A stretch of 64,000 bases of DNA from Chryseobacterium culicis. GTDB lineage: Bacteria; Bacteroidota; Bacteroidia; Flavobacteriales; Weeksellaceae. The stretch covers positions 62,001-126,000 of the forward strand of contig NZ_FNWQ01000005.1 of NCBI RefSeq assembly GCF_900108365.1, given 5' to 3'. Each line of letters opens with the position of its first letter. Position 1 is the first letter of the stretch. Position numbers and translations under genes: made by a program. The notes beneath the pieces were generated by a model. The model searched no databases and was not told where the DNA came from. It saw only the letters and a program-made list of their open reading frames with translations. Shown here piece after piece: positions 10,835 through 26,222 of this stretch.

Positions 10835-11965
10835 ATGTCAACACTTACATTTGCCGAGAAAATAGCTCAAGCAGAAAATTTCTTACCGATTAACGGTACA
10901 GATTATATTGAGTTTTATGTAGGAAATGCAAAACAGGCTGCCCATTATTACAAAACCGCTTTCGGTTTTCAGTCTGTAGCTTATGCCGGTCCTGAAACAG
11001 GAGTAAGAGACCGCGCATCTTATGTGCTTCAACAGGGAAAAATCAGATTGGTACTTACTACCGGATTAAAATCTGACTCTCCTATCAGCGAGCACGTAAA
11101 AAAACATGGTGACGGAGTAAAAATTTTGGCACTTTGGGTAGATGACGCTTATGCAGCTTTCGAAGAAACAACTAAAAGAGGCGGAAAACCTTATCTAGAG
11201 CCGGTAACGTTAACCGACGAGCAGGGTGAGGTAAGAATGTCCGGAATCTACACCTATGGTGAAACCGTTCACATGTTTATTGAAAGAAAGAATTATAACG
11301 GAGCTTTTATGCCTGGGTACGAAAAGTGGGAAAGTGATTATAAGCCTGAAGAAGCAGGTTTATTATACGTGGACCACTGCGTAGGAAATGTTGACTGGAA
11401 CAGAATGATCCCAACCGTTGAATGGTATGAAAAAGTAATGGGGTTTGTTAACATCCTTTCTTTTGATGACAAGCAGATCAACACAGAATATTCTGCACTG
11501 ATGTCTAAAGTAATGTCAAACGGAAACGGATACGCAAAATTCCCGATCAACGAACCTGCAGAAGGTAAGAAGAAATCGCAGGTAGAAGAATACCTTGATT
11601 TTTATGAGGGAGAAGGTGTGCAGCACATTGCGGTAGCAACCAAAGACATTATTCATACTGTAACAGAATTGAAGAAACGTGGTGTAGAATTCCTTTCTGC
11701 TCCGCCGGAAGCTTATTATGACATGGTTCCTGAAAGAGTGGGCCATATTGATGAAGATCTTAAAAAACTTCAGGAGTTAGGTATACTTATTGATCATGAT
11801 GAAGAAGGATACTTACTGCAGATCTTTACGAAGCCTGTAGAAGACCGTCCTACTCTATTCTTCGAAATTATTGAAAGACACGGTGCACAGAGTTTTGGCG
11901 CCGGAAACTTCAAAGCTTTATTCGAAGCATTAGAAAGAGAACAGGAAAGAAGAGGTAATCTTTAA
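10835..11965 (+). CDS. hppD: 4-Hydroxyphenylpyruvate dioxygenase
   Basis: 376 residues with two vicinal-oxygen-chelate domains. The 2-His-1-Glu iron site is visible as H181 (YVDHCVGNV), H264 (VQHIAVAT) and E344 (FFEIIERHG), and the C-terminal SFGAGNFKALFEALE helix is diagnostic. It converts 4-hydroxyphenylpyruvate to homogentisate with O2, CO2 release and side-chain migration, feeding hmgA. ATG 10835 follows AAAAGAGAAAAT. A terminator at 11984 separates it from the small secreted protein gene, and the phased ACTTAAG repeats upstream may control it. Confidence 0.96.
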   Translation: MSTLTFAEKIAQAENFLPINGTDYIEFYVGNAKQAAHYYKTAFGFQSVAYAGPETGVRDRASYVLQQGKIRLVLTTGLKSDSPISEHVKKHGDGVKILALWVDDAYAAFEETTKRGGKPYLEPVTLTDEQGEVRMSGIYTYGETVHMFIERKNYNGAFMPGYEKWESDYKPEEAGLLYVDHCVGNVDWNRMIPTVEWYEKVMGFVNILSFDDKQINTEYSALMSKVMSNGNGYAKFPINEPAEGKKKSQVEEYLDFYEGEGVQHIAVATKDIIHTVTELKKRGVEFLSAPPEAYYDMVPERVGHIDEDLKKLQELGILIDHDEEGYLLQIFTKPVEDRPTLFFEIIERHGAQSFGAGNFKALFEALEREQERRGNL

Positions 11966-11983
11966 TTTTACATTAAAAAATAC

Positions 11984-12022
11984 AAGTTTTGTCAGGATAT
12001 CGTATTCTGGCAAAACTTTTTT
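11984..12022 (+). terminator. Terminator after hppD
   Basis: AAGTTTTGTCAG (11984-11995) pairs with CTGGCAAAACTT (12007-12018) with one G-U, then T-run. It ends 14 bases before ATG 12037, ruling out the longer in-frame start upstream for the next gene. Confidence 0.8.
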
Positions 12023-12036
12023 ATAAAACACAGTTT

Positions 12037-12498
12037 ATGAGAAAATTTTTAATCGGGATTTTCCTATTGGGAACACTGGGGCTCAAAGCTCAGTTTGGCT
12101 CTCTTAATGAAATCCTTAACAGACTTGAACAGAGAAAAGGCATCAATCAGCATCTTGAAAATGTTAATATTGACAACAAGAAATTCGTTTTCATCAAAGA
12201 TGAAGCCGATCATACGGAAAGAGACTTTATTATTATCAAAGGAAATAATGCCACTTATGTAGAAGTTTTTGATGATAAAGCCACAGGGGAAAGCAGTTCT
12301 AATGTTTTCAGCGGCGATATCATCAGGAAAAAAAATATTATTTCTTTGCGGGCAGACATGCTTGAAAATAAAAAAATCCCCATGCCTGTTACCAAAACTT
12401 TATTGTTGACCCAGCAGGATAATATTCTGTATCTTATTGATGTCAATACCAAAGACAGATGGATCGACGAAACTTCTTTCTCAAAAAAGGCAAAGTAA
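12037..12498 (+). CDS. Small exported protein of unknown function
   Basis: 153 residues. A signal peptide (MRKFLIGIFLLGTLGLKAQ) is followed by a mature part rich in Lys/Asp/Glu with EILNRLEQRKGINQHLENVN and IIIKGNNATYVEVFDDKATG. No known motif is recognised. It lies between hppD and fahA on the same strand, 52 bases before fahA, so it may be co-transcribed with fahA; the spacing contains no hairpin. The start at 12037 is favoured because upstream in-frame sequence is the hppD terminator. Confidence 0.75.
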   Translation: MRKFLIGIFLLGTLGLKAQFGSLNEILNRLEQRKGINQHLENVNIDNKKFVFIKDEADHTERDFIIIKGNNATYVEVFDDKATGESSSNVFSGDIIRKKNIISLRADMLENKKIPMPVTKTLLLTQQDNILYLIDVNTKDRWIDETSFSKKAK

Positions 12499-12550
12499 AT
12501 TTTCGGGGAAATTCTCCGGATGATATGTTATCTAACTTAAATTTAAACTT

Positions 12551-13798
12551 ATGAAATCATTTGTAGACTATTCCTCAAATTCGGATTTTTCTATACATAA
12601 TATTCCTTTCGGAGTCGCAGTTTTTAACAAAGAATATATCGGATGCTGTACAAGAATCGGAGATCAGGTAATTGATCTTGCCACCTTGTACGATCTGGGC
12701 TATTTTGAAGATATTGAAGGATTAGACGACAATGTTTTTGAAGCGTATACCATCAACGAATTTATCGAATTGGGTAAACCTGTTACCAACGTGGTTCGTA
12801 CAAGAATCCAAACCTTATTACAGGAAGGATCTATTTTGTCAAAAGACCAGAAAACCATCGAAGAAGCCTTCTATGACCTGGATAAAGTAAAAATGATGAT
12901 GCCCGTTCACATTCCGAACTACACAGATTTCTACAGCAGCATCGAACACGCTACCAATGTAGGAAAAATGTTCCGGGATCCGGAAAATGCCTTATTGCCC
13001 AACTGGAAACATCTACCTGTAGGTTACCACGGAAGAGCTTCCTCTATTGTAGTTTCCGGAACAGAAATTAACCGTCCGAAGGGCCAGATGAAACCTGCAG
13101 ATGCAGATAAACCTGTCTTCGGGCCATGTAAGCAGCTGGATTTCGAACTGGAAATGGCTTTCATCATCAACAAAAATACAGAGATGGGAGAAAGCATCTC
13201 TACCAAAGATGCTGAAGATGCCATCTTCGGAATGGTAGTTTTCAACGACTGGTCTGCAAGAGATATCCAATCCTGGGAATATGTTCCGCTAGGGCCATTT
13301 CTGGCAAAAAACTTCGGATCATCAATTTCTCCGTGGGTAGTTACGCTTGAAGCCCTGGAACCATTCAGAACAGCTTCTCCTCATCAGGATCCTGAGGTTT
13401 TAGAGTATTTAAAATTTGAAGGTGATAAAAATTATGATATCAACCTTGAAGTATATATTCAGCCTGAAAATGGAGATCAGAACCTGATCTGCCAAAGCAA
13501 CTACAAGCACATGTACTGGAATATGACCCAGCAGCTGGCTCACCACACTGTAAACGGATGTAACGTGGAAGTTGGTGATCTGTATGCCAGCGGTACCATT
13601 TCCGGAAATGATCCCAAATCTTTCGGATCTATGCTTGAATTGACATGGAGAGGACAAAATCCTTTATCATTAAGCAATGGAGAAGAAAGAAAATTCATTG
13701 AAGATAATGATACGGTAACGATGAAAGCGTGGGCTGAAAAAGACGGGGTAAGAGTAGGTTTCGGTGAAGTTTCAGGGAAAATTATACCGACAGTTTAA
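12551..13798 (+). CDS. fahA: Fumarylacetoacetase
   Basis: 415 residues. The N-terminal SH3-like part includes NIPFGVAVF; the catalytic domain has DFYSSIEHATNVGKMFRDP (Asp, His and metal site), LPVGYHGRASSIV, QLDFELEMAFI (Glu ligands), NDWSARDIQSWEYVPLGPFLAKNF and SGNDPKSFGSMLELTW. It hydrolyses fumarylacetoacetate to fumarate and acetoacetate, the last step of the homogentisate pathway. It stands with hppD and hmgA in this island. Maleylacetoacetate isomerase, the step before it, is not encoded in the window. Confidence 0.96.
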   Translation: MKSFVDYSSNSDFSIHNIPFGVAVFNKEYIGCCTRIGDQVIDLATLYDLGYFEDIEGLDDNVFEAYTINEFIELGKPVTNVVRTRIQTLLQEGSILSKDQKTIEEAFYDLDKVKMMMPVHIPNYTDFYSSIEHATNVGKMFRDPENALLPNWKHLPVGYHGRASSIVVSGTEINRPKGQMKPADADKPVFGPCKQLDFELEMAFIINKNTEMGESISTKDAEDAIFGMVVFNDWSARDIQSWEYVPLGPFLAKNFGSSISPWVVTLEALEPFRTASPHQDPEVLEYLKFEGDKNYDINLEVYIQPENGDQNLICQSNYKHMYWNMTQQLAHHTVNGCNVEVGDLYASGTISGNDPKSFGSMLELTWRGQNPLSLSNGEERKFIEDNDTVTMKAWAEKDGVRVGFGEVSGKIIPTV

Positions 13799-13916
13799 TT
13801 TTATCTGCATGTAAACTCTGCACCAGGCTACTATCAGATCTTACTGATTTTGAAAATCTACAAGGTTTGGTGGATGACATCGCTAAAATATGCTGCGAGA
13901 CAGTTGTATTAGAAGT

Positions 13917-13967
13917 GTCATGCTAAGCTCCAGCTATAGGTTTACGAACGAAGTTCGCAAAGCATCT
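13917..13967. repeat. Degenerate copy of the palindromic TCATGCTGAGC/GAAGCAT repeat
   Basis: TCATGCTAAGCTCCAGCT at the left and GTTCGCAAAGCATC at the right resemble the arms of the intact palindromic element at 34931-35021. It occupies part of the 220-base gap after fahA. Confidence 0.45.
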
Positions 13968-13985
13968 TTTAATATCATTTTAAAT

Positions 13986-14003
13986 ACTTAAGTCGAATTA
14001 AGT
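13986..14003. promoter_or_regulatory. ACTTAAGT motif upstream of the flavin reductase-like gene
   Basis: ACTTAAGT (13986-13993) and TTAAGT (13998-14003) lie 16-33 bases before ATG 14019; the word is shared with the array before hppD. Confidence 0.35.
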
Positions 14004-14018
14004 GTTACAAGTAAAAAC

Positions 14019-14840
14019 ATGAAAACAGTAATCCCCTCCGAGATAACCTCCGTACAGCTTCAGACCATTATGCAGACGGCCGTTTCGCCACGGCCCATTG
14101 CTTTGGCTTCCACGGTAGATAAAGACGGTAACAGCAACTTATCTCCATTCAGTTTTTTTAATATGTTCAGTACGGTGCCTCCTATTTTAATATTTTCACC
14201 GTCAAGAAGAGTTCGGGACAATACAACGAAACATACCCTGGAAAATATTCTTGAAGTACCGCAAGTGGTCATCGGAACAGTGAATTTTCCTATTGTACAG
14301 CAGGTTTCTTTAGCTTCTACAGAATATGAAACGGGAATTAATGAATTTATCAAATCCGGCCTTACCATGAAGGACGCAGATCTGGTACAGCCTAAACTGA
14401 TTGATGAATGCCCTGTCAACTTTGAATGTAAAGTATTAGAGGTAAAATCATTGGGAGATCAGGGAGGCGCAGGAAATCTGATAATCTGTGAAGTTCAGAA
14501 AATTCATATCAGAGAAGAATATCTGAATGAATCCGGAAACCTCGATCAGAAAAAGCTGGATATGGTAGCCCGCTTAGGCAGCAACTGGTATTCCAGAAGC
14601 AATGAAAACAGCCTCTTTGAAGTACCAAAACCTTTGGTAACAAAAGGAATTGGCTTTGATCTGCTTCCTGATGCCATAAAGTACAGCAAAGTATTTACAG
14701 GAAATGACCTTGGAATGCTTGCCAATACGGAAGTCTTACCTGCCGGTAACTTCCATGGTGATGAAAGCATTCATCTGGATGCCCAGAAACTCCTTCTGGA
14801 AAATAAAATTGAAGAAGCGTGGGCTTTGCTTACGGTATAA
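14019..14840 (+). CDS. Flavin reductase-like (FMN-binding split barrel) protein
   Basis: 273 residues with the flavin reductase-like split-barrel features: AVSPRPIALASTVDKDGNSNLSPFSFFNMFSTVPP for FMN binding and HTLENILEVPQVVIGTVN. The C-terminal 90 residues (LGSNWYSRSNENSLFEVPKP onward) are an extension seen in Bacteroidota members. Such proteins bind FMN and reduce it or use it as a cofactor. The gene sits next to fahA and is bounded by a strong terminator, so it may belong to aromatic amino-acid catabolism in this lineage; its reaction is not known. Confidence 0.78.
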   Translation: MKTVIPSEITSVQLQTIMQTAVSPRPIALASTVDKDGNSNLSPFSFFNMFSTVPPILIFSPSRRVRDNTTKHTLENILEVPQVVIGTVNFPIVQQVSLASTEYETGINEFIKSGLTMKDADLVQPKLIDECPVNFECKVLEVKSLGDQGGAGNLIICEVQKIHIREEYLNESGNLDQKKLDMVARLGSNWYSRSNENSLFEVPKPLVTKGIGFDLLPDAIKYSKVFTGNDLGMLANTEVLPAGNFHGDESIHLDAQKLLLENKIEEAWALLTV

Positions 14841-14842
14841 TA

Positions 14843-14876
14843 AAAAATCGGCCTGAAATTTCAGGCCGATTTTTTT
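14843..14876 (+). terminator. Terminator after the flavin reductase-like gene
   Basis: ATCGGCCTGAA (14847-14857) / TTCAGGCCGAT (14860-14870) with flanking A and T runs. Confidence 0.9.
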
Positions 14877-15029
14877 ATTATAAGATGGAAGTCAGAGGGC
14901 GGATGCTGGAAGCTGGCGGTTGTTTAAAATAACTGTTTCCCAATTAAATAACTTTTTGGAAAACAGTTCTATTTTGATTTCAACAGATATGGAATGCCGG
15001 CAATATATTCCCGCTTCCGTTACCCTTTG

Positions 15030-15536
15030 TTACTTCGCCTTTAATGATTCAGAAATAACGATCTTTCCTTTTTCGGCAAATTCTGTTGCCTTACCATTTT
15101 TATCAATGGAAACATTCAGATTATCATTTTTAGCATCGTAAAAGATACTGGTAGCATACCCCGGGCAGTCATGCTGTTTGCAGCCGGTAATCTTATAAAT
15201 TCCGTTTTCAGAAGCAATTGGACTTTCCACATTAAAATTCTTTACCATTTCATCATATTGAGCTCCCGTCAGCTTTTTCAACCTTTCTGTGATGTTTTTA
15301 TCTTCAAAAAACTTAATATCGTTGGGGTATTTACCTGCATTTTTGGTAATAATATTATCCGCAGCCGGAGCAGAAGACGGTGGTGATGCTACAGAATCGT
15401 TTTTTGTAACTACAGAATCCGTAGGTGCTGCTGTAGCCAGAGTGTCTGTACTGACAGAAGATTCTGTTTTGACTTCTTTTTTACAGGATACAACACATAA
15501 TGAAAGCGCAAATGCGCCTGCAATAATTTTTTTCAT
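15030..15536 (-). CDS. Lipoprotein of unknown function
   Basis: 168 residues. A lipobox is visible (LSLCVVSC, lipidated C18) followed by KKE, then a Ser/Thr/Pro/Ala-rich linker of about 45 residues and a compact domain from about residue 65 with NITERLKKLTGAQYDEMV and a cysteine pair in TGCKQHDCPGY. Probably anchored in the outer or inner membrane facing the periplasm. No family is recognised. It is downstream of the alpha/beta hydrolase at 15586 on the same strand with a 49-base gap, possibly one transcript. Confidence 0.75.
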   Translation of the reverse strand: MKKIIAGAFALSLCVVSCKKEVKTESSVSTDTLATAAPTDSVVTKNDSVASPPSSAPAADNIITKNAGKYPNDIKFFEDKNITERLKKLTGAQYDEMVKNFNVESPIASENGIYKITGCKQHDCPGYATSIFYDAKNDNLNVSIDKNGKATEFAEKGKIVISESLKAK

Positions 15537-15585
15537 AATTATACTGTTATGGTGGTTAATTTATAATAACGCAGTTTTACAAATT

Positions 15586-16428
15586 TTATTTCAATTTTTC
15601 TTTTATAAAATCAATACATTTTTCAGTTACGCTATCTAAATCTTGTGGCAGCACAGTATCTGTCCAGGGTTCTTTCGCTCCGAAAGTATGGTTGGCTTTT
15701 TCAATCAGAAACAGTTCAGAATTCGGGTGGAGAAGATGAAGATGCTCCGCCTGCTTTACTTCTACAGCTTCGTCTTCTGTTCCATGAATAATCAGCATAT
15801 AAGCTTTAGCCATTTCAGTCGCCCGTTCTACATCAAAACGATGAATATTGTTCTCATAATCTTCATAAAACTGATAATAATGCGGCATTTGCTGTTTTGT
15901 ACGGCCGTTCAGCGCATAATACACTCCATTATTTTTCCAGTCGCTCAATGCCTCTCCCTTGGGAAAACGGTCTAAGGTATCTACACTTGCCAATGTAATC
16001 AAACCATTAATTCTTTCGTCCTCGCAGGTTTTGATAATAGAAATTCCTCCTCCTCTGCTGTGCCCTATCAGAACGATTTTTTCATTATCCACATGCGGAT
16101 CTCTACTAAAATGATCAATCACCACACCAAGGTCAGAAAGCTCTTTAGAATAATTGTTATGGCCAAAAGCTTCAAGATCTCCAAAATTATGAGGATCCTC
16201 CACTGTTGTCCCATTATGAGAAAAATTAAACTTCACAAAGAAAAATCCTGCCTCGGCAAACTTTTCTGCCATCAGATTCCAGGCTCCCCAATCCTTGTAG
16301 CCTTTATATCCGTGCACAAATATCACTAACGGAAGCTTTTGCCCATTGTCTTTGTAAAAAGCGTCAGCAAGAAAGGTTTTTGTTTCTTTATTCTCTAAAC
16401 GGATATTCTTTTGATTAATTAAATTCAT
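15586..16428 (-). CDS. Alpha/beta hydrolase, dienelactone hydrolase/esterase-like
   Basis: 280 residues, cytoplasmic. The oxyanion region VIFVHGYKGYKDWGAW, the nucleophile elbow GHSRGG with S124, an acid region LIIHGTEDEAVEV and the catalytic His in KANHTFGA are all present, giving a complete triad. The layout is that of BAAT/DLH-like peptidase/esterase hydrolases; the substrate is unknown. It is divergent from the HipA-like kinase gene, with a 135-base gap that contains the latter's promoter. Confidence 0.85.
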   Translation of the reverse strand: MNLINQKNIRLENKETKTFLADAFYKDNGQKLPLVIFVHGYKGYKDWGAWNLMAEKFAEAGFFFVKFNFSHNGTTVEDPHNFGDLEAFGHNNYSKELSDLGVVIDHFSRDPHVDNEKIVLIGHSRGGGISIIKTCEDERINGLITLASVDTLDRFPKGEALSDWKNNGVYYALNGRTKQQMPHYYQFYEDYENNIHRFDVERATEMAKAYMLIIHGTEDEAVEVKQAEHLHLLHPNSELFLIEKANHTFGAKEPWTDTVLPQDLDSVTEKCIDFIKEKLK

Positions 16429-16551
16429 ATGCAGATATTCTTTGTATTAGAGTCTTGTTTGAAACGGAAATTTATGAAAAAATCTCCGTTTTTGGTTCCT
16501 GATTTCTTATTTCTTTCTCTTTAGTGAAGCCTAAGTTTATAAAAATAGCCT

Positions 16552-16559
16552 TATTTTTG
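16552..16559 (+). promoter_or_regulatory. -7 element placed directly before the HipA-like gene
   Basis: TATTTTTG matches TAnnTTTG and ends only 4 bases before ATG 16564. Transcription would start at or next to the ATG, so the mRNA is probably leaderless. Confidence 0.5.
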
Positions 16560-16563
16560 CTTC

Positions 16564-17337
16564 ATGCAGAATTTAAGAACTGTAACCGTGATGCGTTACA
16601 TTCTGCCTTTGAGAGAAGGAGGATCTCTTCCGGCTCTGGCAGAAGCTGATGATGATTTCAAGTACGTATTAAAATTCCGTGGTGCAGGCCATGGAGTAAA
16701 AATGCTGATCTCCGAACTACTGGGCGGAAAGATTACAGAAGCTTTAGGACTGAAGATTCCTGAACTTGTGTTTATCAACCTTGATGCTGATTTCGGAAGA
16801 ACGGAAGCGGATGAAGAAATACAGGACCTCCTGAAACATTCGGAAGGCCTGAATCTTGGACTGCACTATCTTTCCGGTTCTATCACCTATGATCCCGGAG
16901 TACGTGTGGATCCGCTTTTAGCCTCAAAAATTGTATGGCTGGATGCATTCATTACCAATATAGACCGTACCTTTAAAAATACCAATATGCTGATGTGGCA
17001 TAAAGAACTTTGGATCATAGATAATGGGGCTTCATTCTATTTCCACCACTCCTGGCAGAATTTTGATGCTGCGGCCAAGACTCCTTTCAAATATGTGAAA
17101 GACCACGTGCTTCTTCCTAAGGCAAAAATGCTTGACGAAGCAGATCAATTTGCCCATGAAGTTTTGAATGATGCTCTTTTCAGAGAAATTGTTAACTCAA
17201 TTCCTGAGGACTGGTTACAGTGGAATGATGCTGACCAGACGCCGGAAGAAATCCGTGAGATCTATTTTCAGTTTATGAAAACCAGATTAGAAAATTCTCA
17301 AATCTTTGTAAACGAAGCGAAAAATGCAAGAGGATAA
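16564..17337 (+). CDS. HipA-like kinase family protein
   Basis: 257 residues with kinase-type landmarks of the compact HipA-like (HipA_2) group: K37 in YVLKFRG as the candidate ATP lysine, a catalytic-loop-like stretch D134-R-T-F-K-N139-T-N141, and D153-N-G in LWIIDNGASF as the metal-binding DFG equivalent. It lacks the N-terminal HipA regulatory lobe and is much shorter than HipA (about 440 residues). Its last 14 bases overlap the DUF3037 gene, indicating translational coupling. HipA kinases phosphorylate translation-related proteins in toxin-antitoxin systems; whether this one is a toxin is unproven. No HipB-like HTH antitoxin is adjacent. Confidence 0.85.
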   Translation: MQNLRTVTVMRYILPLREGGSLPALAEADDDFKYVLKFRGAGHGVKMLISELLGGKITEALGLKIPELVFINLDADFGRTEADEEIQDLLKHSEGLNLGLHYLSGSITYDPGVRVDPLLASKIVWLDAFITNIDRTFKNTNMLMWHKELWIIDNGASFYFHHSWQNFDAAAKTPFKYVKDHVLLPKAKMLDEADQFAHEVLNDALFREIVNSIPEDWLQWNDADQTPEEIREIYFQFMKTRLENSQIFVNEAKNARG

Positions 17338-17707
17338 AATATATGAATACGCGGTAATACGCCTGGTACCGAAAGTTGAAAGAGAAGAATTTTTCAATAT
17401 CGGGCTGGTGATGTTTTCTAAGAAAGAAAAATTCATCAGAGTGGAGTTTTATTTGTGTCCGGACAAGTTCAAACTGATGCACAGCAAATTGGATTATGAT
17501 GATGTGATTCACAATCTGGAAAGCTTTCAGAAGATTGCGAATGGTGACAAACACGGCGGTCCGATTGCTTTTCTGGATATTCCTGAGCGCTTCCGCTGGC
17601 TGACGGCTGTAAGAAGCTCTGTTGTGCAGACTTCACGCCCTCATCCGGGAAAATCCAAAGACCTGAATGCTACTTTTGGTAAGCTTTTTGAGGAGTTAGT
17701 AAAATAA
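17324..17707 (+). CDS. DUF3037 protein
   Basis: 127 residues, matching the DUF3037 pattern: YEYAVIRLVPKVEREEFFNIGLVMFS at the start, FYLCPDKFKLMHS in the middle, and FRWLTAVRSSVVQTSRPHPG near the end, followed by a C-terminal FGKLFEELV helix. Function unknown in the family. It overlaps the HipA-like kinase by 14 bases; the two families are commonly neighbours in bacteria, so DUF3037 is a plausible partner, regulator or substrate of the kinase. Only 21 bases separate it from the next hydrolase, which may be read through. Confidence 0.85.
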   Translation: MQEDKIYEYAVIRLVPKVEREEFFNIGLVMFSKKEKFIRVEFYLCPDKFKLMHSKLDYDDVIHNLESFQKIANGDKHGGPIAFLDIPERFRWLTAVRSSVVQTSRPHPGKSKDLNATFGKLFEELVK

Positions 17708-17728
17708 CGTTTCCTTAAAAAATTTATT

Positions 17729-18766
17729 ATGAATTTATCGACAAACAACATATCAGATTACAGGTTTTTCACAAACCTGTTTTTTGTTTTAATTCTAAGT
17801 TTTTCTAATTCATTTTTTTCACAGGGCTTTTCTCAGGTACAGACAAAGACTCCACCTGTAAAGAGTACACTACTTCCTGAGATAGCGCATCTGTCTGAGG
17901 ACATTGCATATACAACCAACAAAAAAGGAAATGCTGTAAAGCTGGATGTTTTTACTCCTAAAAACGGGACTTCCGGCCAGCTGTTCCCTGTACTGATCTA
18001 TGTTCACGGCGGCGGATGGATCGGTGGTGATAAAGTCATTCACGCTGATAATTATGTAGAAACAACCATTGCCAAGCTGATGGCTAAGCAATATGCCGTT
18101 GTCAGTATCAATTATACACTTCTGAATGACAGCACCCACTTTCCATTGCCTTTGGAAGATACGAAAGATGCCGTAAGATGGGTGAGAAAAAATGCTGCAC
18201 AGTATCATTTTGATACAAACAATATTGGTTTGTTCGGAGCTTCAGCCGGTGCTCATCTATCTATGATGGCTGCTTACACTCCGGATAATACCTACTTTGG
18301 AAATCCGGAACTTTCCTCTTATTCTTCCCAAGTAAATTATGTGATTGATCATTATGGACCGGCAGACCTCAACACGCTTTTTCACACAAAATTAGGAACG
18401 ATTCCGGTAGGACTTATTGGGTTAATGTCCAAAAAAATTGTCGGTTTACAGGAAAATCTGGTCAGAGGAATTTCCGGATATAATATCAGAAAAGATCAGG
18501 ACAGAGCCATTGATTATCTTAAAACGATGTCTCCGGTTAATTTTGTTTCGGCAGCAGTTCCTACTTTGATTGTTCAGGGCAATAATGATAAAATTGTCCC
18601 ATTAAAACAGTCTAAAAAGCTTCACAGAAAATTAAACAGGGCGGGAATACAGAACTCGCTGATCATTGTAGACGGCGGAGTACATGGATTTGGGACTACT
18701 GATAAAGCTTATCTTGATCAACTTACAGATCAAATGGTGGATTTTGTTATTTCACAAAAAAAATAA
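17729..18766 (+). CDS. Exported alpha/beta hydrolase (esterase/lipase, carboxylesterase-like)
   Basis: 345 residues with a hydrophobic N-terminal segment at about 14-34 (FFTNLFFVLILSFSNSFFSQ) that may act as signal peptide. The oxyanion motif HGGGW is at 93-97, the nucleophile is S172 in GASAGAH, the acid is in GNNDKIVPL and the His in GGVHGFGTT. This is the BD-FAE/acetyl-xylan or feruloyl esterase-like branch of alpha/beta hydrolases; the natural ester is unknown. It begins 21 bases after DUF3037, probably by chance of packing rather than function. Confidence 0.82.
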   Translation: MNLSTNNISDYRFFTNLFFVLILSFSNSFFSQGFSQVQTKTPPVKSTLLPEIAHLSEDIAYTTNKKGNAVKLDVFTPKNGTSGQLFPVLIYVHGGGWIGGDKVIHADNYVETTIAKLMAKQYAVVSINYTLLNDSTHFPLPLEDTKDAVRWVRKNAAQYHFDTNNIGLFGASAGAHLSMMAAYTPDNTYFGNPELSSYSSQVNYVIDHYGPADLNTLFHTKLGTIPVGLIGLMSKKIVGLQENLVRGISGYNIRKDQDRAIDYLKTMSPVNFVSAAVPTLIVQGNNDKIVPLKQSKKLHRKLNRAGIQNSLIIVDGGVHGFGTTDKAYLDQLTDQMVDFVISQKK

Positions 18767-18959
18767 TATACATACACGCATTCATATTTATTATAAAACA
18801 TTATAAATCAATAAAATAAACTTATATAAATTCACAAATTTGCTAGATTGATATACTTATTGATATTTTTCATTGAGAATTAATTACCTTGGCTATTGTT
18901 TAAATTATTAACAATAAAAACACCAATACTTTCATTTTTTATCAATAAAAATATGCAAT

Positions 18960-20801
18960 ATGGAATCTTTAAACAATATCAATGCGCTTACCCTTATCTT
19001 TGTATCTGTTCTTATTTTTGCGATAGCATACCGTTTTTATGGTATTTTCATCGCGAATAAAGTTCTGCGGCTTAATGACCAGAATATGACACCGGCTGTG
19101 GAATTTGCAGATGGTAAAGATTATGTTGCTACGAATAAAAATGTACTTTTCGGACACCATTTTGCGGCAATTGCTGCTGCCGGGCCTTTGGTAGGGCCTG
19201 TTTTGGCGGCACAGTTCGGGTATCTTCCCGGCGCTTTATGGATCCTGATCGGATGTGTTCTGGGCGGTGGAGTTCATGATATGATTGTGCTTTTTGCCTC
19301 AGTGAGGCATAAAGGTCAGAGTCTTGCAACAATTGCTTCAAAAGAAATCGGAAAGACCACAGGAACCGTGGCTGGATTTGCCATCCTTTTCATCCTGATT
19401 CTTACATTGGCGGGTTTATCTTTAGCCTGTATCAATGCAATGCACGAAGCTTCATGGTCTCTTTTTACCGTTGTGATCACAATGCCGATTGCCATCATTA
19501 TGGGACTGATTATGCGTTATAAAAAGAACAGTGTTCTTTTTGCCAGTATTTTAGGAGGCATTCTTTTGATTGCTGGGATTATCGGAGGACATACGCTGAT
19601 GCAGAATCCTACTATGAATGGTTTATTTTCGTGGGATATCAAAACAATTTCTATCGCCATTCCTTTGTATGGTTTTATTGCCTCGGTATTACCGGTATGG
19701 CTTCTTTTGGTTCCTAGGGATTATTTGTCAACCTATTTAAAGATCGGAACTATTATTATGCTGGCAATAGGAGTCATTGTTATTCATCCTACGATTCAGA
19801 TGCCGGCTATTACAGCTTTTGTTAACGGCGGTGGACCGATCATTGGCGGGCCTGTACTTCCTTTTATTTTCATTGTGATTGCCTGTGGCGCTATTTCGGG
19901 ATTCCATGCAGTGATTGCTACAGGAACTACTCCGAAAATGCTGAATAAGGAAAGAGAAATTCTTTTTGTAGGTTATGGAGCGATGCTTGTAGAAGGTTTT
20001 GTGGCCCTGATGGCACTTATTGCGGCATCTACGCTGATGCCGGGTGATTACTTTGCCATCAATACCCCCAAAGAGGCTTATGATTCTTTTCTGGCCGCAC
20101 ATCCTTCCCTCCATGGTGTCGATATTGATTATTATTCGCAGAAAATAGGTATTGATCTGTATGGCAGAACTGGAGGAGCTGTATCGCTGGCGGTAGGAAT
20201 GGCTCACATCTTTAATAAAATTCCTTACATGGATCAGCTGACAGCTTATTGGTATAATTTCGCGATTATGTTTGAGGCCGTATTTATTCTTACAGCCATT
20301 GATGCAGGAACAAGAGTCGGACGCTTCTTTTTACAGGAAATGCTGGGGTCCGTGGTGCCTAAATTTAATGATAAAAACTGGATCCCGGGAATTATCATCA
20401 GTAGTATTCTTTTCACTTTTGCATGGGGATATCTGGTGTATACCGGAAATGTAAACAGCATCTGGCCGCTGTTTGGAATCAGCAATCAGCTGCTTGCTGC
20501 CTGCGGGCTTATTGTCTGCACCACAATGCTGATAAGAATGAACAGAGGGAAATATGCTTTATGCTCGGCTATTCCTGGTGTTTTCATGGCCGGAATTACT
20601 TTCTGGGCGGGTTATATTCAGGTAACGGCTATTTATATTCCGAAAGGACAGTACTTGCTGGCAGTTTTAGCAGCAACCGCAATGATTCTTATGCTCATTG
20701 TATTCATAGGCGCTTTCAGAAAATGGTATCAGCTTCTTCAGATTAACAGGACCGAAATTGACCATTATGGTGAACCTGTGAAAGAACTGGTAGAAAGATA
20801 A
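18960..20801 (+). CDS. cstA: Carbon starvation protein CstA family transporter
   Basis: 613 residues with about 16 hydrophobic segments. The N-terminal region has YRFYGIFIANKVL, then PAVEFADGKDYVATNKNVLFGHHFAAIAAAGPLVGPVLAAQFGYLPGALWI-type CstA motifs, and GFHAVIATGTTPKML, DAGTRVGRFFLQE and FGISNQLLAA further on. Family members import peptides or pyruvate, induced under carbon limitation. Located in the cytoplasmic membrane. It stands alone, preceded by a 193-base AT-rich gap and followed by a strong terminator. Confidence 0.92.
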   Translation: MESLNNINALTLIFVSVLIFAIAYRFYGIFIANKVLRLNDQNMTPAVEFADGKDYVATNKNVLFGHHFAAIAAAGPLVGPVLAAQFGYLPGALWILIGCVLGGGVHDMIVLFASVRHKGQSLATIASKEIGKTTGTVAGFAILFILILTLAGLSLACINAMHEASWSLFTVVITMPIAIIMGLIMRYKKNSVLFASILGGILLIAGIIGGHTLMQNPTMNGLFSWDIKTISIAIPLYGFIASVLPVWLLLVPRDYLSTYLKIGTIIMLAIGVIVIHPTIQMPAITAFVNGGGPIIGGPVLPFIFIVIACGAISGFHAVIATGTTPKMLNKEREILFVGYGAMLVEGFVALMALIAASTLMPGDYFAINTPKEAYDSFLAAHPSLHGVDIDYYSQKIGIDLYGRTGGAVSLAVGMAHIFNKIPYMDQLTAYWYNFAIMFEAVFILTAIDAGTRVGRFFLQEMLGSVVPKFNDKNWIPGIIISSILFTFAWGYLVYTGNVNSIWPLFGISNQLLAACGLIVCTTMLIRMNRGKYALCSAIPGVFMAGITFWAGYIQVTAIYIPKGQYLLAVLAATAMILMLIVFIGAFRKWYQLLQINRTEIDHYGEPVKELVER

Positions 20802-20821
20802 AATTCCGATTATATATAGTA

Positions 20822-20853
20822 AAAACAGTTCAGAAATTCTGAACTGTTTTTTT
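20822..20853 (+). terminator. Terminator after cstA
   Basis: AACAGTTCAGAA (20824-20835) / TTCTGAACTGTT (20837-20848) followed by seven Ts; also placed to end the converging receptor gene. Confidence 0.9.
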
Positions 20854-20877
20854 ATGAGGATTATGTCCTGTTTTTAT

Positions 20878-23646
20878 TTAGAAGTTGAAATTAAGTCTTG
20901 CAAAAACATACCTGCCATTCTGCCCGAACTGTGAAGTGGAACGGGAATAAATAAACTGATCGTTATTGGTAGAAGCAGGCAGGTTCTTTGTTGGGTAAAT
21001 ATCAAACAAGTTGTTTACTCCTAAAGTCAGTCCCACATTTTTGGTAAACTGATAAGCGGCAGATATATCCGTAATAATTTTATCACCGATTTGCTGGTGT
21101 TCATTAAAATCAATGATACCGTCTCCGTTCACATCAATAATATCCGCTCCCGTTACTTTACCAAAATAGGTATTTCTCAGATAGAAACTTGCACCCTTCC
21201 ATGAAAGCGTATGGGAAAGACTGGCTTTCACTCTAGGAACGGCTTCTTCCAGATAGACTCTTGATTTTTCAGAGAAATAGATCTTTTCAAGCTGTGGCGA
21301 CTGTAGAAGTCCCGCTGAGTGAATATCACCAACCTGTTTAGTTTTATTAAGGTTAATCGCAAAATTGTTATCCAGTTTAAATCCTGAGAACCTGGCGTTA
21401 TGGGAAATAACAACATCCAGCCCTTTTGTTTCCGTATCAATGGCATTGGTAAAGAACTGCGCAGCATTGATTCCCAACTGATCATAAGCTTCCTGTGCTT
21501 TCTGCGGAACACTTGCTCTCAGGAATTGGTCTGTAAGGATAATGCGGTTGTCAATTCTTGTGAAATATCCGTCTGCCGTAAAGGTAAGGCTGGCAGAAGG
21601 AATTCTGTAGGTAAATCCTACACTGGCAGACTTGGAGGTTTCCTGCTTCAGTTTTGGCATATCCAGCAATCCAGCCAGCTGAGAATCGTTACTGAAGGTT
21701 CCTACTTCCAGAAGTTGATTATTGGTGAATAATGTAGACGTTACATTATAATAAATCTGGTGAATAGATGGCGCTCGGAATCCTGTAGAACCGGCAAATC
21801 TCACATTGAAATCCGGAGCTACTTTGATTCTTGATGCCAATTTATAATTGAATGTAGACCCGAAGTCGGAATAATTTTCATATCTCGCTGCAGCATCTAC
21901 CAGTAACCAGTTGGTAAAATTAAATTCAACATCGGCGTAGGCTGCTACCGACTGTCTGTTTTTATCTACAGCATTTCCCGGTTTAAATCCGTTGAACACC
22001 TGAGATCCGCCGGGAAGTGCTGCACCAAAGAAATCTGTAGGTCTCACAGAATTTCCGTTCCATACATTTCCGGCAGCATCATAAGTTGCATAAGAAGCTT
22101 CTTCACCCTGAGTAATTTTAAAATTCTCATAACGATGCTCTGCTCCAAACGCTACGTTGATTCCCTCCCATACATCATATTTTTTAGAGAAATCTAAATT
22201 GATGGTATTCTGAGAAAACCGTAATCCTCCTGCATCAAATTCTCTTGGTGAAGCAAAACGAAGGGATGTATTTCCGGTATTCTGAATATTATAGGTAAAT
22301 GAATTCTGCCCGTATGTATTACTGAAATCAATATTCCAGCCATCCCAGTTTCCTTTGATACCGGCAGCTAATGAGATATCCTGAATATCTGTTCCAATCT
22401 GCGGAAGATAACCGTTAGGATATAATCCTGTAAAGGTTCTGCTTTCGCTTGGTCTTCTGTAAAATCCTCCTGAAGTTCCGTGTCTTATGCTGTAACCGCC
22501 AAAAGTATACACTTTCCAGTTATCACTTACAGGAATCTCAGCATTCACAAAAAGCTGATGATTGTTAAGCTTCGACTGCCCTACCTGCATATTGAAATCT
22601 TTTCTGTTTTGTCCTCTGTAAGCCAGTTCCTGATCGGTAAAATAATTAAGCTGATCTCTGGTAAAATTGGACGATTTCAAAACATTTTGCAGTGCTGAAA
22701 TAGTGTTGGCTCCCTGGATAGCTGTTTGCAGTCCCTGAGAGAAATAGCTTACATCCTGCGCATACTGATGGATGTAATTTACAATCTGCTGTGAATTGGG
22801 GGTATTTCCAATATTCGTAAATAGAGAAGAAAGGTTTACACCGTTATTCAATGCACGCTGTTCAATTGCATTATAGGCATTGTAAATAGGACCGCTTTCC
22901 GTTCCCGCTCTGTATGTTGGGTTTCTGAATTGTGAAGACCACGTGATATTAAAGAAACCTCCTTTGGTTCCGATTTTATTCCCATAGTTTAAATCCAGCT
23001 GAATATTCTGGCCGTCAAAATCTCCGGTATGATCATTTGCGGTTGGCGTAAGGTTTCCTCCATAGCTTATCTGCCCTGTTAGTTTTCCGGTATCTTTTTT
23101 TAATTCAAGGTTGATTACTCCGGCAATGGCATCAGATCCGTACTGTGCAGAAGCTCCGTCTCTTAACACTTCTATTCTGTTTAAGGCAAAAGAAGGAATG
23201 GCATTCAAATCGGTTCCTACCGTACCTCTTCCGGGTGTTCCGTTTACGTTTACCAGTGCTGAAGTATGTCTTCTTTTCCCGTTCACCAAAACCAAAACCT
23301 GGTCTGGCCCTAAACCTCTCAGCTGGGCAGGGTCCAAATGATCTGTCCCATCAGAATTCGTCTGAATTGTAGAAGTAAACGAAGGGGCAACAGCATTAAG
23401 AATCTGCCCGATATTGGTCTGCGGAAGAATAATTGAAGATTCCTTTACGTTGAATACATCTACAGGAACCGGACTGTCTACTTTGGATCTGGCTCCGGCT
23501 CTGGAACCCAGTACGACAACTTCTTCTACATTATTGGTCTTTATAGAGTCTTTATTTGTTTTTATGCTGTCTTTTTCCTGACCGTAGGTAAATACACCGA
23601 GGAAAAAAAGAACAGAAGCCGAAAGAATAGTTTTCTTATTATTCAT
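20878..23646 (-). CDS. TonB-dependent receptor (large)
   Basis: 922 residues. Signal peptide to about residue 22 (VFTYGQ), a tandem heptad KDSIKTN-KDSIKTN, a TonB-box-like VEEVVVLGSRAG, a plug with INLDPAQLRGLGPDQVLVLVNGKRRH-type features (PAQLRGLGPDQVLVLVNGK) and IEVLRDGASAQYGSDAIAGVINLELKK, and a long barrel ending in GRYVFARLNFNF with a terminal Phe. This belongs to the broad iron-complex/vitamin-type receptor group with RDGASAQYGSDA plug; no lid-forming SusD partner is near, so it is not a SusC. Ligand unknown. A clean promoter lies at 23686-23715. Confidence 0.88.
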   Translation of the reverse strand: MNNKKTILSASVLFFLGVFTYGQEKDSIKTNKDSIKTNNVEEVVVLGSRAGARSKVDSPVPVDVFNVKESSIILPQTNIGQILNAVAPSFTSTIQTNSDGTDHLDPAQLRGLGPDQVLVLVNGKRRHTSALVNVNGTPGRGTVGTDLNAIPSFALNRIEVLRDGASAQYGSDAIAGVINLELKKDTGKLTGQISYGGNLTPTANDHTGDFDGQNIQLDLNYGNKIGTKGGFFNITWSSQFRNPTYRAGTESGPIYNAYNAIEQRALNNGVNLSSLFTNIGNTPNSQQIVNYIHQYAQDVSYFSQGLQTAIQGANTISALQNVLKSSNFTRDQLNYFTDQELAYRGQNRKDFNMQVGQSKLNNHQLFVNAEIPVSDNWKVYTFGGYSIRHGTSGGFYRRPSESRTFTGLYPNGYLPQIGTDIQDISLAAGIKGNWDGWNIDFSNTYGQNSFTYNIQNTGNTSLRFASPREFDAGGLRFSQNTINLDFSKKYDVWEGINVAFGAEHRYENFKITQGEEASYATYDAAGNVWNGNSVRPTDFFGAALPGGSQVFNGFKPGNAVDKNRQSVAAYADVEFNFTNWLLVDAAARYENYSDFGSTFNYKLASRIKVAPDFNVRFAGSTGFRAPSIHQIYYNVTSTLFTNNQLLEVGTFSNDSQLAGLLDMPKLKQETSKSASVGFTYRIPSASLTFTADGYFTRIDNRIILTDQFLRASVPQKAQEAYDQLGINAAQFFTNAIDTETKGLDVVISHNARFSGFKLDNNFAINLNKTKQVGDIHSAGLLQSPQLEKIYFSEKSRVYLEEAVPRVKASLSHTLSWKGASFYLRNTYFGKVTGADIIDVNGDGIIDFNEHQQIGDKIITDISAAYQFTKNVGLTLGVNNLFDIYPTKNLPASTNNDQFIYSRSTSQFGQNGRYVFARLNFNF

Positions 23647-23685
23647 AGGTTAGAATTTGATTAACATTTATGTTTTTACAAGGTG

Positions 23686-23715
23686 CAAATGTAAAATTTA
23701 TTTATTAGTCCACAA
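23686..23715 (-). promoter_or_regulatory. Promoter of the large TonB receptor
   Basis: On the minus strand TTG (23715-23713), 19 bases, TACATTTG (23693-23686); ATG follows 39 bases later. One of the best promoter matches in the window. Confidence 0.75.
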
Positions 23716-23840
23716 AAATAATAGACTTTGTTTTTGTAAAAAATTGTTATCGTTTCTTTCTATCCCTCGTTTAAAGTTATGATAAATTAAGGAAACATCC
23801 ATAAAGAACATCGACATTTCGAACTTCGCATTTAAACATA

Positions 23841-23866
23841 AAAAAACGGATCCAAAATGGGATCCG
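23841..23866 (-). terminator. Terminator after the UvrD/PcrA helicase
   Basis: Minus-strand stem CGGATCC / GGATCCG (23866-23860 with 23853-23847) followed by a six-base T-run, 26 bases after the helicase stop. Confidence 0.8.
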
Positions 23867-23891
23867 CTTTTCTTATATTTTATTTTCGAAA

Positions 23892-26222
23892 TTAAATCTT
23901 AGTCAGCTTAGCATATTTCAGAATCAGGTTTTTCTCTCCTTCATGAATGAAAATGACCTTCGCTTTGATATTCTGAGGGTCTGTTCCATCCAGGAAAGAA
24001 ACCTCTCCTATTCCGAAACGGTCATGTCTCACTTTATCTCCAACTTCAATATCCTGAGACGAAGCTCCGCTCGGATTGATAATTTTAGCAGTACTTACAG
24101 GTTTCAGCTTTCTGACTTCCTGGGCTGGTTTCGAAGCTTCCCCTCTGTCAATAGTCTTCTTTTCAACCTTTTTGAAAGATTTCATTTCTGATGGATGTTC
24201 ATCGAAAATGTTAGACTTCACGCCTGAATTATTAATGAATCTTTTTTCAAGGGCAGGATTCAGAAATTCAATATATTCATCATCAATTTCACTTAAGAAC
24301 CTTGAAGGTTCCGCGTCTGTAATTTTCCCCCATTGGAAACGGGAAACAGCATAAGAGAAAAATACCTGCTTTTCAGCTCTTGTTAACGCAACATAAAATA
24401 GCCTCCTCTCTTCTTCCAGATCTTCTCGGGTTGCTGAGCTCATAAAGCTGGGGAAAAGGTTTTCTTCCAGTCCTACTAAGTGTACCACCGGGAATTCCAA
24501 TCCTTTTGATAAGTGAATTGTCATCAGAGAAACCATATCATCTTCCAGTTCTTTATCCTGAGTATCTGCAGAAAGTGCAATATTTTCAAGGAAGTTGGAA
24601 AGACTCGGATCCCCGTCCTCAAGCTGCATCTGCTCTTCAATGAAGCCCTGCATAGAGTTCATCAATTCCTGTACGTTTTCTACTCTGGAAATCCCTTCCG
24701 GGGTCTGATCATCTTTTAGAAATTTGATTAAACCGCTTCGTTTTGCCACTTCCATTGCAACACTGTAAGCCGTTTCTGTTTTCAGCAGTACCTGAAATGC
24801 CTTGATCATAGACCAGAAGTCGTTCAGCTTATTCAACACTCCGTTATTTAACCCTAACTGCGGTGCGTACATCGGAAGATTTTCCAATACTTTAGATACT
24901 GCAATATTATGAGCGTCTGCAAAAACAATCAGTTTATTTTGTGTGGTTTCTCCGATTCCTCTTGCAGGATAATTGATAATCCTCATCAACGCTTCAGAAT
25001 CATTTTCATTGATCAGGAGACGAAGGTAACCAATAAGGTCTTTCACTTCTTTTCTCTGATAGAAAGAAAGTCCTCCATACACTTTGTACGGAATATTTTT
25101 ACGTCTCAGCGCGTCTTCAAATGCACGGGTCTGAGAATTTGTTCTGTATAAAATAGCAAAATCGCTGTATTTTCTCTGGTCACGGTTACGAAGTTCCCAG
25201 ATATTTCCTGCAACGAAATTAGCTTCATCGGCATCGGAAAGAGAACGGTAAATTTTAATCTTATCTCCTTCTTCATTATCACTGAACACATTTTTCTTAA
25301 ACTGTTGAAGGTTTTTAGCAATCACTACATTAGCCGCATTTACAATATTTTGTGTGGAACGGTAATTTTGCTCCAATGATACCGTTTTTGCATCAGCATA
25401 ATCTTTTTTAAAGTTTAAGATATTATAGATATTCGCTCCACGGAAGGAATAAATAGACTGTGCATCATCTCCTACTACACAGATGTTCTCAAATTTCGAA
25501 GCCAGAGCTTTTACGATAAGATACTGAGAATGGTTCGTATCCTGGTACTCATCTACCATGATGTATCGGAACCTGTCCTGATATTTAGCCAGCACTTCCG
25601 GGAAACGGGTTAATAGTTCATTGGTTTTCAACAACAGGTCATCAAAATCCATAGATCCGTTTCTGAAACACTGATCCACATATTTCTGGTAAATCTGCCC
25701 GATAAATTTCATATTCGCCTTTTCATCCGCTTCCATCAGTTCCGGATTATTGAAATAAGCTTTTACGGTAATCAGGTTGTTCTTATAGGTTGAAATTCTT
25801 GCCTGAACTTTTTTAGGTTTATAAAGATCAGCATCAATATTCATATCCTTCAGAACTTTTTTGATTACGTTCAAAGCATCCTGCTGATCATAAATGGTAA
25901 AATTGGAAGGATATCCAAGATAATGAGCCTCAATTCTTAAAATTCTTGCAAAAACCGAGTGAAATGTACCCATCCAGAGGCTTCTGGCATTGCTGTCTCC
26001 CACCACTTTGGCGATACGGTCTTTCATTTCGCGTGCCGCTTTATTGGTAAAGGTAAGCGCCAGGATATTGAAAGGGTCTATTCCATTGTGTATTAAATGG
26101 GCAATACGCATCGTAAGTACACGTGTTTTCCCCGAACCTGCTCCTGCAAGTACCATCAAAGGTCCTTGTAAAGAGGTAACGGCTTCATATTGTGATTCGT
26201 TGAGTCCTTTCAAATAGTCCAT
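23892..26222 (-). CDS. UvrD/PcrA-type superfamily 1 DNA helicase
   Basis: 776 residues. Walker A AGAGSGKT (26-33), the Q-motif LNESQYEAVTS upstream of it, motif Ia LALTFTNKAAREMK, Walker B VDEYQDTNHSQY, motif III GDDAQSIYSFRGA, motif IV EQNYRSTQNIV, motif V VSLMTIHLSKGLEF and motif VI RLFYVALTRAEK are all present. The C-terminal segment VGDKVRHDRFGIGEVSFLDG is the PcrA/UvrD Tudor-like domain that contacts RNA polymerase. A 3'-5' helicase for nucleotide excision and replication repair. Gene order around it is not informative. Confidence 0.95.
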   Translation of the reverse strand: MDYLKGLNESQYEAVTSLQGPLMVLAGAGSGKTRVLTMRIAHLIHNGIDPFNILALTFTNKAAREMKDRIAKVVGDSNARSLWMGTFHSVFARILRIEAHYLGYPSNFTIYDQQDALNVIKKVLKDMNIDADLYKPKKVQARISTYKNNLITVKAYFNNPELMEADEKANMKFIGQIYQKYVDQCFRNGSMDFDDLLLKTNELLTRFPEVLAKYQDRFRYIMVDEYQDTNHSQYLIVKALASKFENICVVGDDAQSIYSFRGANIYNILNFKKDYADAKTVSLEQNYRSTQNIVNAANVVIAKNLQQFKKNVFSDNEEGDKIKIYRSLSDADEANFVAGNIWELRNRDQRKYSDFAILYRTNSQTRAFEDALRRKNIPYKVYGGLSFYQRKEVKDLIGYLRLLINENDSEALMRIINYPARGIGETTQNKLIVFADAHNIAVSKVLENLPMYAPQLGLNNGVLNKLNDFWSMIKAFQVLLKTETAYSVAMEVAKRSGLIKFLKDDQTPEGISRVENVQELMNSMQGFIEEQMQLEDGDPSLSNFLENIALSADTQDKELEDDMVSLMTIHLSKGLEFPVVHLVGLEENLFPSFMSSATREDLEEERRLFYVALTRAEKQVFFSYAVSRFQWGKITDAEPSRFLSEIDDEYIEFLNPALEKRFINNSGVKSNIFDEHPSEMKSFKKVEKKTIDRGEASKPAQEVRKLKPVSTAKIINPSGASSQDIEVGDKVRHDRFGIGEVSFLDGTDPQNIKAKVIFIHEGEKNLILKYAKLTKI

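Follow-up and report, generated by a model that had tools for sequence, protein, structure and literature searches.

A short type of the HipA_2/DUF3037 kinase gene pair behaves as a core-genome locus in Chryseobacterium

The window analyzed here, a stretch of 64,000 nucleotides from Chryseobacterium culicis (contig NZ_FNWQ01000005.1, positions 62,001 to 126,000), carries a small HipA-like kinase gene that runs into a gene for a DUF3037 protein. A preliminary description of the sequence had reported both open reading frames, their 14-nt overlap and a -7 element 4 bases before the ATG, and all of these were found where it had placed them. We take TAnnTTTG to be the Bacteroidota -7 consensus, as did that description. 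The features, in window coordinates, are:

16552–16559, forward strand: -7 promoter element TATTTTTG (TAnnTTTG), 4 bases 5' of the kinase ATG
16564–17337, forward strand: small kinase of the HipA_2 family (PF20613), 257 aa, Pfam E 5.4e-17
17324–17337, forward strand: overlap of the kinase and DUF3037 genes, 14 bases
17324–17707, forward strand: short DUF3037 protein (PF11236), 127 aa, Pfam E 3.7e-38

Neither protein matched an NCBIfam model at E 1. In PADLOC the kinase was recognized as PDC-M66A (85 bits, E 9.5e-25) and its partner as PDC-M66B (37 bits, E 6.1e-10), the latter over only positions 2–128 of 281. Among 173 such pairs, all with both genes on the same strand, DUF3037 comes in two size classes: 158 loci, certain genomes contributing more than one, encode proteins of 124–138 aa, and 15 loci encode proteins of 274–314 aa. 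These are henceforth referred to as the short and extended types. The 14-base overlap of the window is consistent with translational coupling of the two genes. In the 158 short-type loci, which include duplicate loci of single genomes, the overlap was 14 bases in 83, 23 in 54, 11 in 18, 4 in two and 20 in one, while in a further 80 loci it was 23, 11, 14 or 20 bases in 79, the remaining locus showing a computed gap of 40 bases. Gene fusions, for which the preliminary description had proposed comparing genomes, did not appear: none of the 173 pairs shares one open frame, and the overlaps of the 80 further loci also disallow it. Nor was there a conserved third gene across 102 loci, in which only the kinase and DUF3037 recur throughout and the next most frequent family (22 of the 102) tracks genus.

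The promoter element keeps its place within the genus. In 42 of 47 distinct upstream sequences (from 62 loci of the genus and the window), TAnnTTTG has its first base at exactly -12 from the ATG; in two the distance is 11 bases and in one 13, and two lack the element. The flanking DNA has diverged although the spacing of the element held. An element fixed beside the start codon suggests that the kinase transcript may be leaderless or nearly so, a prediction made from the spacing. A promoter fixed throughout the phylum was rejected, given that the position is not fixed in 80 loci of other genera and the constancy is thus confined to the genus.

The residues from which the preliminary description had recognized a HipA-like kinase (K37, D134, N139 and D153-N-G) are all present in the window protein, which also has the loop REGGSLP at residues 17–23. 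Aligning 129 distinct short-type pairs, with 127 distinct kinases, showed K37, D134, R135, N139, N141, D153 and G155 each conserved in 128 rows, and the sole exception at each of the seven positions is a truncated remnant from Leptolyngbya (L178). Since the 15 extended-type rows keep N141 in 13 cases and N139 in seven, N141 appears the likelier metal ligand. The AlphaFold2 model of the kinase (pLDDT 90.6) found its best structural match in CtkA (Z 15.9, 206 residues, 3.2 Å), followed by PI4KII (Z about 14), CotH (12.9), actin-fragmin kinase (12.4) and Fam20 (12.3); HipT (11.8) and HipA (11.1) ranked below several CotH, Fam20 and actin-fragmin kinases. By these matches the protein is a small member of the broad fold class to which all of them belong, and its length together with the model indicates that it probably lacks N-subdomain-1. 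With the fold nearer to CtkA and PI4KII than to HipT and HipA, the targets of the latter two are a poor guide to the target of this kinase. The CtkA-type kinase of Helicobacter pylori, the closest solved structure, is about 15% identical to it, and we know of no DUF3037 partner for CtkA.

The DUF3037 protein is also modeled well (AlphaFold2, pLDDT 90.7), and Foldseek returned no PDB match for it at E 0.001. The best match in VIA, a putative adenylate cyclase at Z 3.2, was treated as noise, and no assigned fold or function was found for the family. The short proteins share the motif RFRWLTA-x-RS-x3-Q-x-S-x2-H-x-G at residues 89–109 and, besides this, R13, P16, R20, E22, N25 and G27. From this set the extended rows retain chiefly E22 (14/15), G27 (15/15) and P16 (10/15), and only single positions of the 89–109 motif (e.g. 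S104 in 9/15). Many of its polar residues are invariant even among proteins as little as 40% identical to that of the window, and such strict conservation could mark a ligand or catalytic site as plausibly as an inhibitor surface. A HipS-like identity found no support in the weak test applied, an hhalign comparison of DUF3037 with the N-subdomain-1 of two HipA N-termini (probability 0.1 with a two-row template).

The preliminary description had implied that the pair was new, whereas it is already catalogued as PDC-M66 in PADLOC and as HipAD/DS-6. The source paper of HipAD is reportedly Brenes & Laub 2025. In the DefensePredictor study, DS-6, renamed HipAD, pairs a kinase with a protein made up of DUF3037 and DUF1829; defence is lost when DS-6A carries a catalytic mutation, and AlphaFold3 predicts binding of DS-6A to DS-6B (ipTM 0.76–0.79) and, more weakly, DNA binding (PMC13092281). 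A HipA/DUF3037 pair beside Retron-Sda1 is described in another study as defending against phage Bas51 without the retron, with defence abolished by deletion of the kinase and toxicity following deletion of DUF3037 (PMC12548924). These systems resemble the window pair in having a HipA_2-type kinase followed by an overlapping or adjacent same-strand DUF3037 gene, without HipB. They differ in the long C-terminal part of their DUF3037 proteins (the PDC-M66B model has 281 positions, DS-6B has DUF1829 and in the Sda1 protein this part resembles a retron DNA-binding protein), whereas the window protein has 127 aa and a motif of its own; the window pair is also core, not patchy, in its genus. The hipBA operon of E. 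coli and relatives shares with the window a HipA-type Ser/Thr kinase with its catalytic motifs (the window kinase matches Shewanella HipA at Z 11.1), but the window has no adjoining HipB-like gene and its kinase no apparent N-subdomain-1. In hipBST and hipJS, too, a small kinase without N-subdomain-1 goes with a small partner protein (PMC8262856), and the window kinase matches Legionella HipT at Z 11.8. Their partner is HipS, whereas that of the window kinase is DUF3037, which had no detected similarity to HipA N-subdomain-1 in the same weak test. The main text of that Hip kinase phylogeny does not mention DUF3037, and we found neither a short nor a core type discussed in the main-text literature on the pair. 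It is this short, core-genome type of an already known pair that is new here.

The short type is distinct from PDC-M66. Four extended-type kinases scored 356, 181, 94 and 47 bits against PDC-M66A, a range that includes the 85 bits of the window. Against PDC-M66B, four of seven extended DUF3037 proteins matched nearly full length (360, 318, 228 and 103 bits) and the remaining three gave 29.4 bits, 16.5 bits and no match; three short proteins scored 33–47 bits, over the first half only. The window pair has the PDC-M66 gene order (kinase first, then an adjoining same-strand DUF3037), and its DUF3037 protein has neither the C-terminal extension nor a full-length PDC-M66B match. The extended type itself consists of two sets, of which PDC-M66 names one. 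Kinase position 139 is K in the PDC-M66-like set and N both in the second set and in the short group. This second set (L136, L144, L147, L149, L150, L152 and L153) is like the window in gene order and in keeping N139, and unlike it in a longer DUF3037 (about 270–314 aa), while the members tested (L147, L149 and L150) barely match PDC-M66B. It is possibly an unnamed relative of HipAD; to our knowledge no name exists for it.

Trees of 25 short and 13 extended rows split the two types by one branch (SH-aLRT 98 for the kinase, 86 for DUF3037), so the short rows are not nested among the extended ones. The short rows were picked from the sequences at hand, the root was placed by midpoint and the DS-6 and Sda1 sequences were left out. 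Rooted in this way, the kinase tree places the short group nearer the PDC-M66 set and the DUF3037 tree nearer the second set. As the midpoint trees disagree and long branches meet, what they show is the separation of the types and not their ancestry. Twenty regions were taken for the extended types, of which 15 gave pairs; L142, L148 (close to a contig end) and L154 showed DUF3037 without a kinase match, L155 a kinase without DUF3037 and L137 neither gene, and L139 and L146, with kinases below 200 aa, were excluded from the trees.

Within the genus the pair behaves as a core gene. HipA_2 and DUF3037 were each present in 98/98 sampled genomes, DUF3037 always as a single copy and HipA_2 as a single copy in all but one, while an ordinary HipA_C, taken as control, occurred in 19 of the same 98. 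A HipA_2 kinase without a detected adjoining DUF3037 lies at G003:C2:1643908–1644396. The usual neighbour, an alpha/beta hydrolase or esterase, adjoins the pair in 45 of 48 genomes checked. In four syntenic comparisons the kinase and DUF3037 were 83–97% identical to the window, with the flanking hydrolase (70–88%) and esterase (50–80%) below them each time and CstA (90–98%) slightly above them, bar rounding-level differences. Median dN/dS against 30 genomes of the genus was 0.039 for the kinase and 0.053 for DUF3037, at a dS of about 1.5–1.6, which is near saturation.

Outside the genus and a few others the pair is patchy, as the family, order and phylum counts show. In the family HipA_2 and DUF3037 were each found in 118/148 genomes, a few being other types; in the order DUF3037 was found in 63/246; and in the phylum DUF3037 was found in 78 and HipA_2 in 87 of 345. 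Family genomes lacking the pair tend to be smaller, with a rough median of 2.4 Mb as opposed to 2.9 Mb (from the 20 listed of 30 rows without it and 96 of the 98 with it), so the pair is dispensable there. The co-occurrence that the preliminary description had proposed to look for is complete in the genus and very strong in the phylum, where 75 genomes had both families, three DUF3037 only and 12 HipA_2 only (odds ratio 531, p 8e-59, a value that is indicative only, the genomes being related). A same-strand HipA_2 lies just upstream at 77 of the 81 DUF3037 places in these 345 genomes; conversely, 15 of 92 HipA_2 places in the phylum scan have no detected adjoining DUF3037. In another family of the order, a DUF3037 match (G250:C170:6350–6699) is interrupted by several stop codons.

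Among named genomes, at least 591 stretches encode a relative. The best 80 of them, from genera that include Flavobacterium, Parabacteroides, Bacteroides, Pedobacter, Chitinophaga and Spirosoma, all hold both genes. Records of Streptomyces and Nonomuraea likewise contain pairs whose DUF3037 is short, and plasmid p1 of Leptolyngbya boryana (L178, 4618–5411) carries an intact short DUF3037 beside a truncated kinase remnant, an open frame of 128 aa (88 aa counted from a start codon).

The surroundings of the window pair were compared with known defence models. No defence-island setting was seen: of the ten neighbouring proteins (10835–26222), nine matched nothing in PADLOC at E 0.001. The remaining one is a UvrD-type helicase (23892–26222) that matches the RTasHel and GajB helicase models at up to 426 bits, and we take it to be an ordinary housekeeping helicase. 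The neighbourhood also includes a flavin reductase, two hydrolases and CstA, and further genes are presumably TonB receptors and tyrosine-catabolism-like genes. No HTH domain was found in the adjoining proteins, both flanks being alpha/beta hydrolases; with the very strong co-occurrence, this bears out the description of a HipB-less, HipA-like kinase module in which DUF3037 is the fixed partner. In the two loci inspected (L095 1423–2959, L096 661–2211), the ordinary HipA of the genus adjoins a gene of 93–97 aa that by eye encodes an HTH protein.

Kinase and DUF3037 genes are inherited jointly, in the main vertically at shallow depth and with some transfer at depth. Across 30 genomes of several families their tree distances correlate at r 0.84, and with those of rpoB at 0.70 (kinase) and 0.74 (DUF3037), with none of 2000 permutations reaching the value in each case; simple arithmetic from these three figures gives a partial r of about 0.67 between the two genes. 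The joint and kinase trees each have 12 of 27 splits in common with rpoB and the DUF3037 tree 10 of 27. Conflicting split pairs in which both supports were at least 95 numbered five for the joint tree, none for the kinase and eight for DUF3037, and involve G237, G240 and G683. Given these conflicts at depth, the pair must sometimes move between lineages, and its neighbouring genes differ from genus to genus.

Mobile elements contain few copies of either type. The short kinase was found in six plasmid records (two of them chromosome-sized) and in three phage records at 24–27% identity, the short DUF3037 in six plasmid records and no phages, and one extended-type query hit two plasmids, no phages and one viral contig. 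Pattern-seeded scans of viral contigs confirmed no relative of the short-type kinase or DUF3037; an extended-type pair lies on an IMG/VR viral contig (L290, 3180–4861), with a TTG start called on the kinase and a 4-base overlap. Mobility on plasmids or phages is therefore a weak contrast between types that are both rare there, and what separates them is presence or absence across genomes. Phages do carry relatives, as follows from matches to PHROGs families (247 positions at E 8e-25 for the kinase; the first half of 279 positions at E 6e-11 for DUF3037). The pair is also found in L176 (Bacteroides finegoldii 'plasmid 56') and L179 (Nonomuraea 'plasmid I', 11.85 Mb), which by gene content or size resemble pieces of chromosome and are for this reason weak evidence of mobility.

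HipA-type kinases are usually regarded as toxins of patchy occurrence that belong to persistence or phage-defence modules. A toxin-like kinase that, with its partner, is found in all sampled genomes of a genus and for the most part at a single locus raises the question of a role as a core gene. By analogy with the extended relatives, we consider it reasonably probable that the pair is a kinase–inhibitor unit in which DUF3037 restrains the kinase, with a conserved chromosomal role. We infer each step of such a scheme, from promoter use and coupling to binding, inhibition, trigger and target. Translation of a leaderless or nearly leaderless message would yield the HipA_2 kinase; DUF3037, encoded by the overlapping gene, would be made by coupled translation, bind the kinase and hold it silent. 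A trigger would then displace or remove DUF3037, and the freed kinase would phosphorylate a cellular target and slow growth; by analogy with HipA and HipT, this might be an aminoacyl-tRNA synthetase or another translation factor. Fixation in the core genome of the genus makes a conserved regulatory role more likely than a mobile defence cassette. This role may be growth control triggered by stress, or else an inherited switch for abortive infection. The core pattern speaks against a purely mobile cassette, and inherited defence is compatible with it. As the short group lacks the putative DNA-binding part of DS-6B and the Sda1 protein, autoregulation of the HipB kind seems unlikely, and the absence of that C-terminal part also means that the function of the relatives may not transfer. 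The preliminary description had proposed DUF3037 as antitoxin or inhibitor, possibly in phage response. The first part gains from the published relatives, in which DUF3037 is a likely antitoxin and the kinase a defence toxin; the second is weakened by the core-gene behaviour of the short copy.

A phage-defence toxin–antitoxin like HipAD/PDC-M66 that has been shortened and fixed, in which infection frees the kinase, translation stops and the infection is aborted, would account for the homology to validated systems, the same gene order and the intact kinase residues. We think it rather unlikely in view of the presence in all 98 genomes, the usual neighbours in 45 of 48, the strong purifying selection and the lack of any defence model in nine of ten neighbouring proteins (the tenth being the UvrD-type helicase), to which are added the scores of just 33–47 bits of three short proteins against PDC-M66B and the separate position of the short group in the trees.

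Core-gene conservation is shared by another reading, in which the kinase is no toxin but a housekeeping signalling enzyme and DUF3037 its activator, adaptor or sensor. The conserved R/E/N and RFRWLTA-RS-Q-S-H-G residues of DUF3037 would then bind a small molecule or phospho-protein, and the pair would tune metabolism or translation. The many polar residues that stay invariant down to 40% identity would suit this role, as would a motif mostly missing from the extended types. We think it, too, rather unlikely, given the toxicity of DUF3037 loss described for the relatives, which fits an inhibitor (PMC12548924), and the Leptolyngbya locus, whose one-sided decay, with DUF3037 kept beside a broken kinase, is as expected of an antitoxin (a single case in the short group). 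That DUF3037 is the main substrate of the kinase, or an enzyme reversing its phosphorylation, is improbable: conserved S98, S104 and charged residues would allow it, but no similarity to a phosphatase or another solved fold was found.

The short pair may be a conserved core signalling unit of the Bacteroidota in which DUF3037 is a sensor, with a conserved ligand site, that gates the kinase, and the HipAD systems may be mobile offshoots of a common stock in which DUF3037 gained a C-terminal, probably DNA-binding, module; we regard this as a tentative possibility, and are equally guarded about counting pairs in Actinomycetota and Cyanobacteriota as relatives of such a unit. If true, a toxin–antitoxin design would serve everyday cell regulation. 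The pair is strongly conserved in the genus and widespread in the phylum, and the short core group set against the extended defence type offers a clean comparison for what the DUF3037 extension adds.

Two further observations concern the position of the pair. In G144, G117 and G175, three genomes of the family, it lies at about 3.4–4.6 kb on C1, near the start of a deposited single-contig chromosome and, by the convention for chromosome starts, perhaps near dnaA. L003 (G053) and L016 (G079), the loci without TAnnTTTG, belong to two of the three genomes lacking the usual neighbours, which suggests that in these genomes the pair has moved and lost its promoter.
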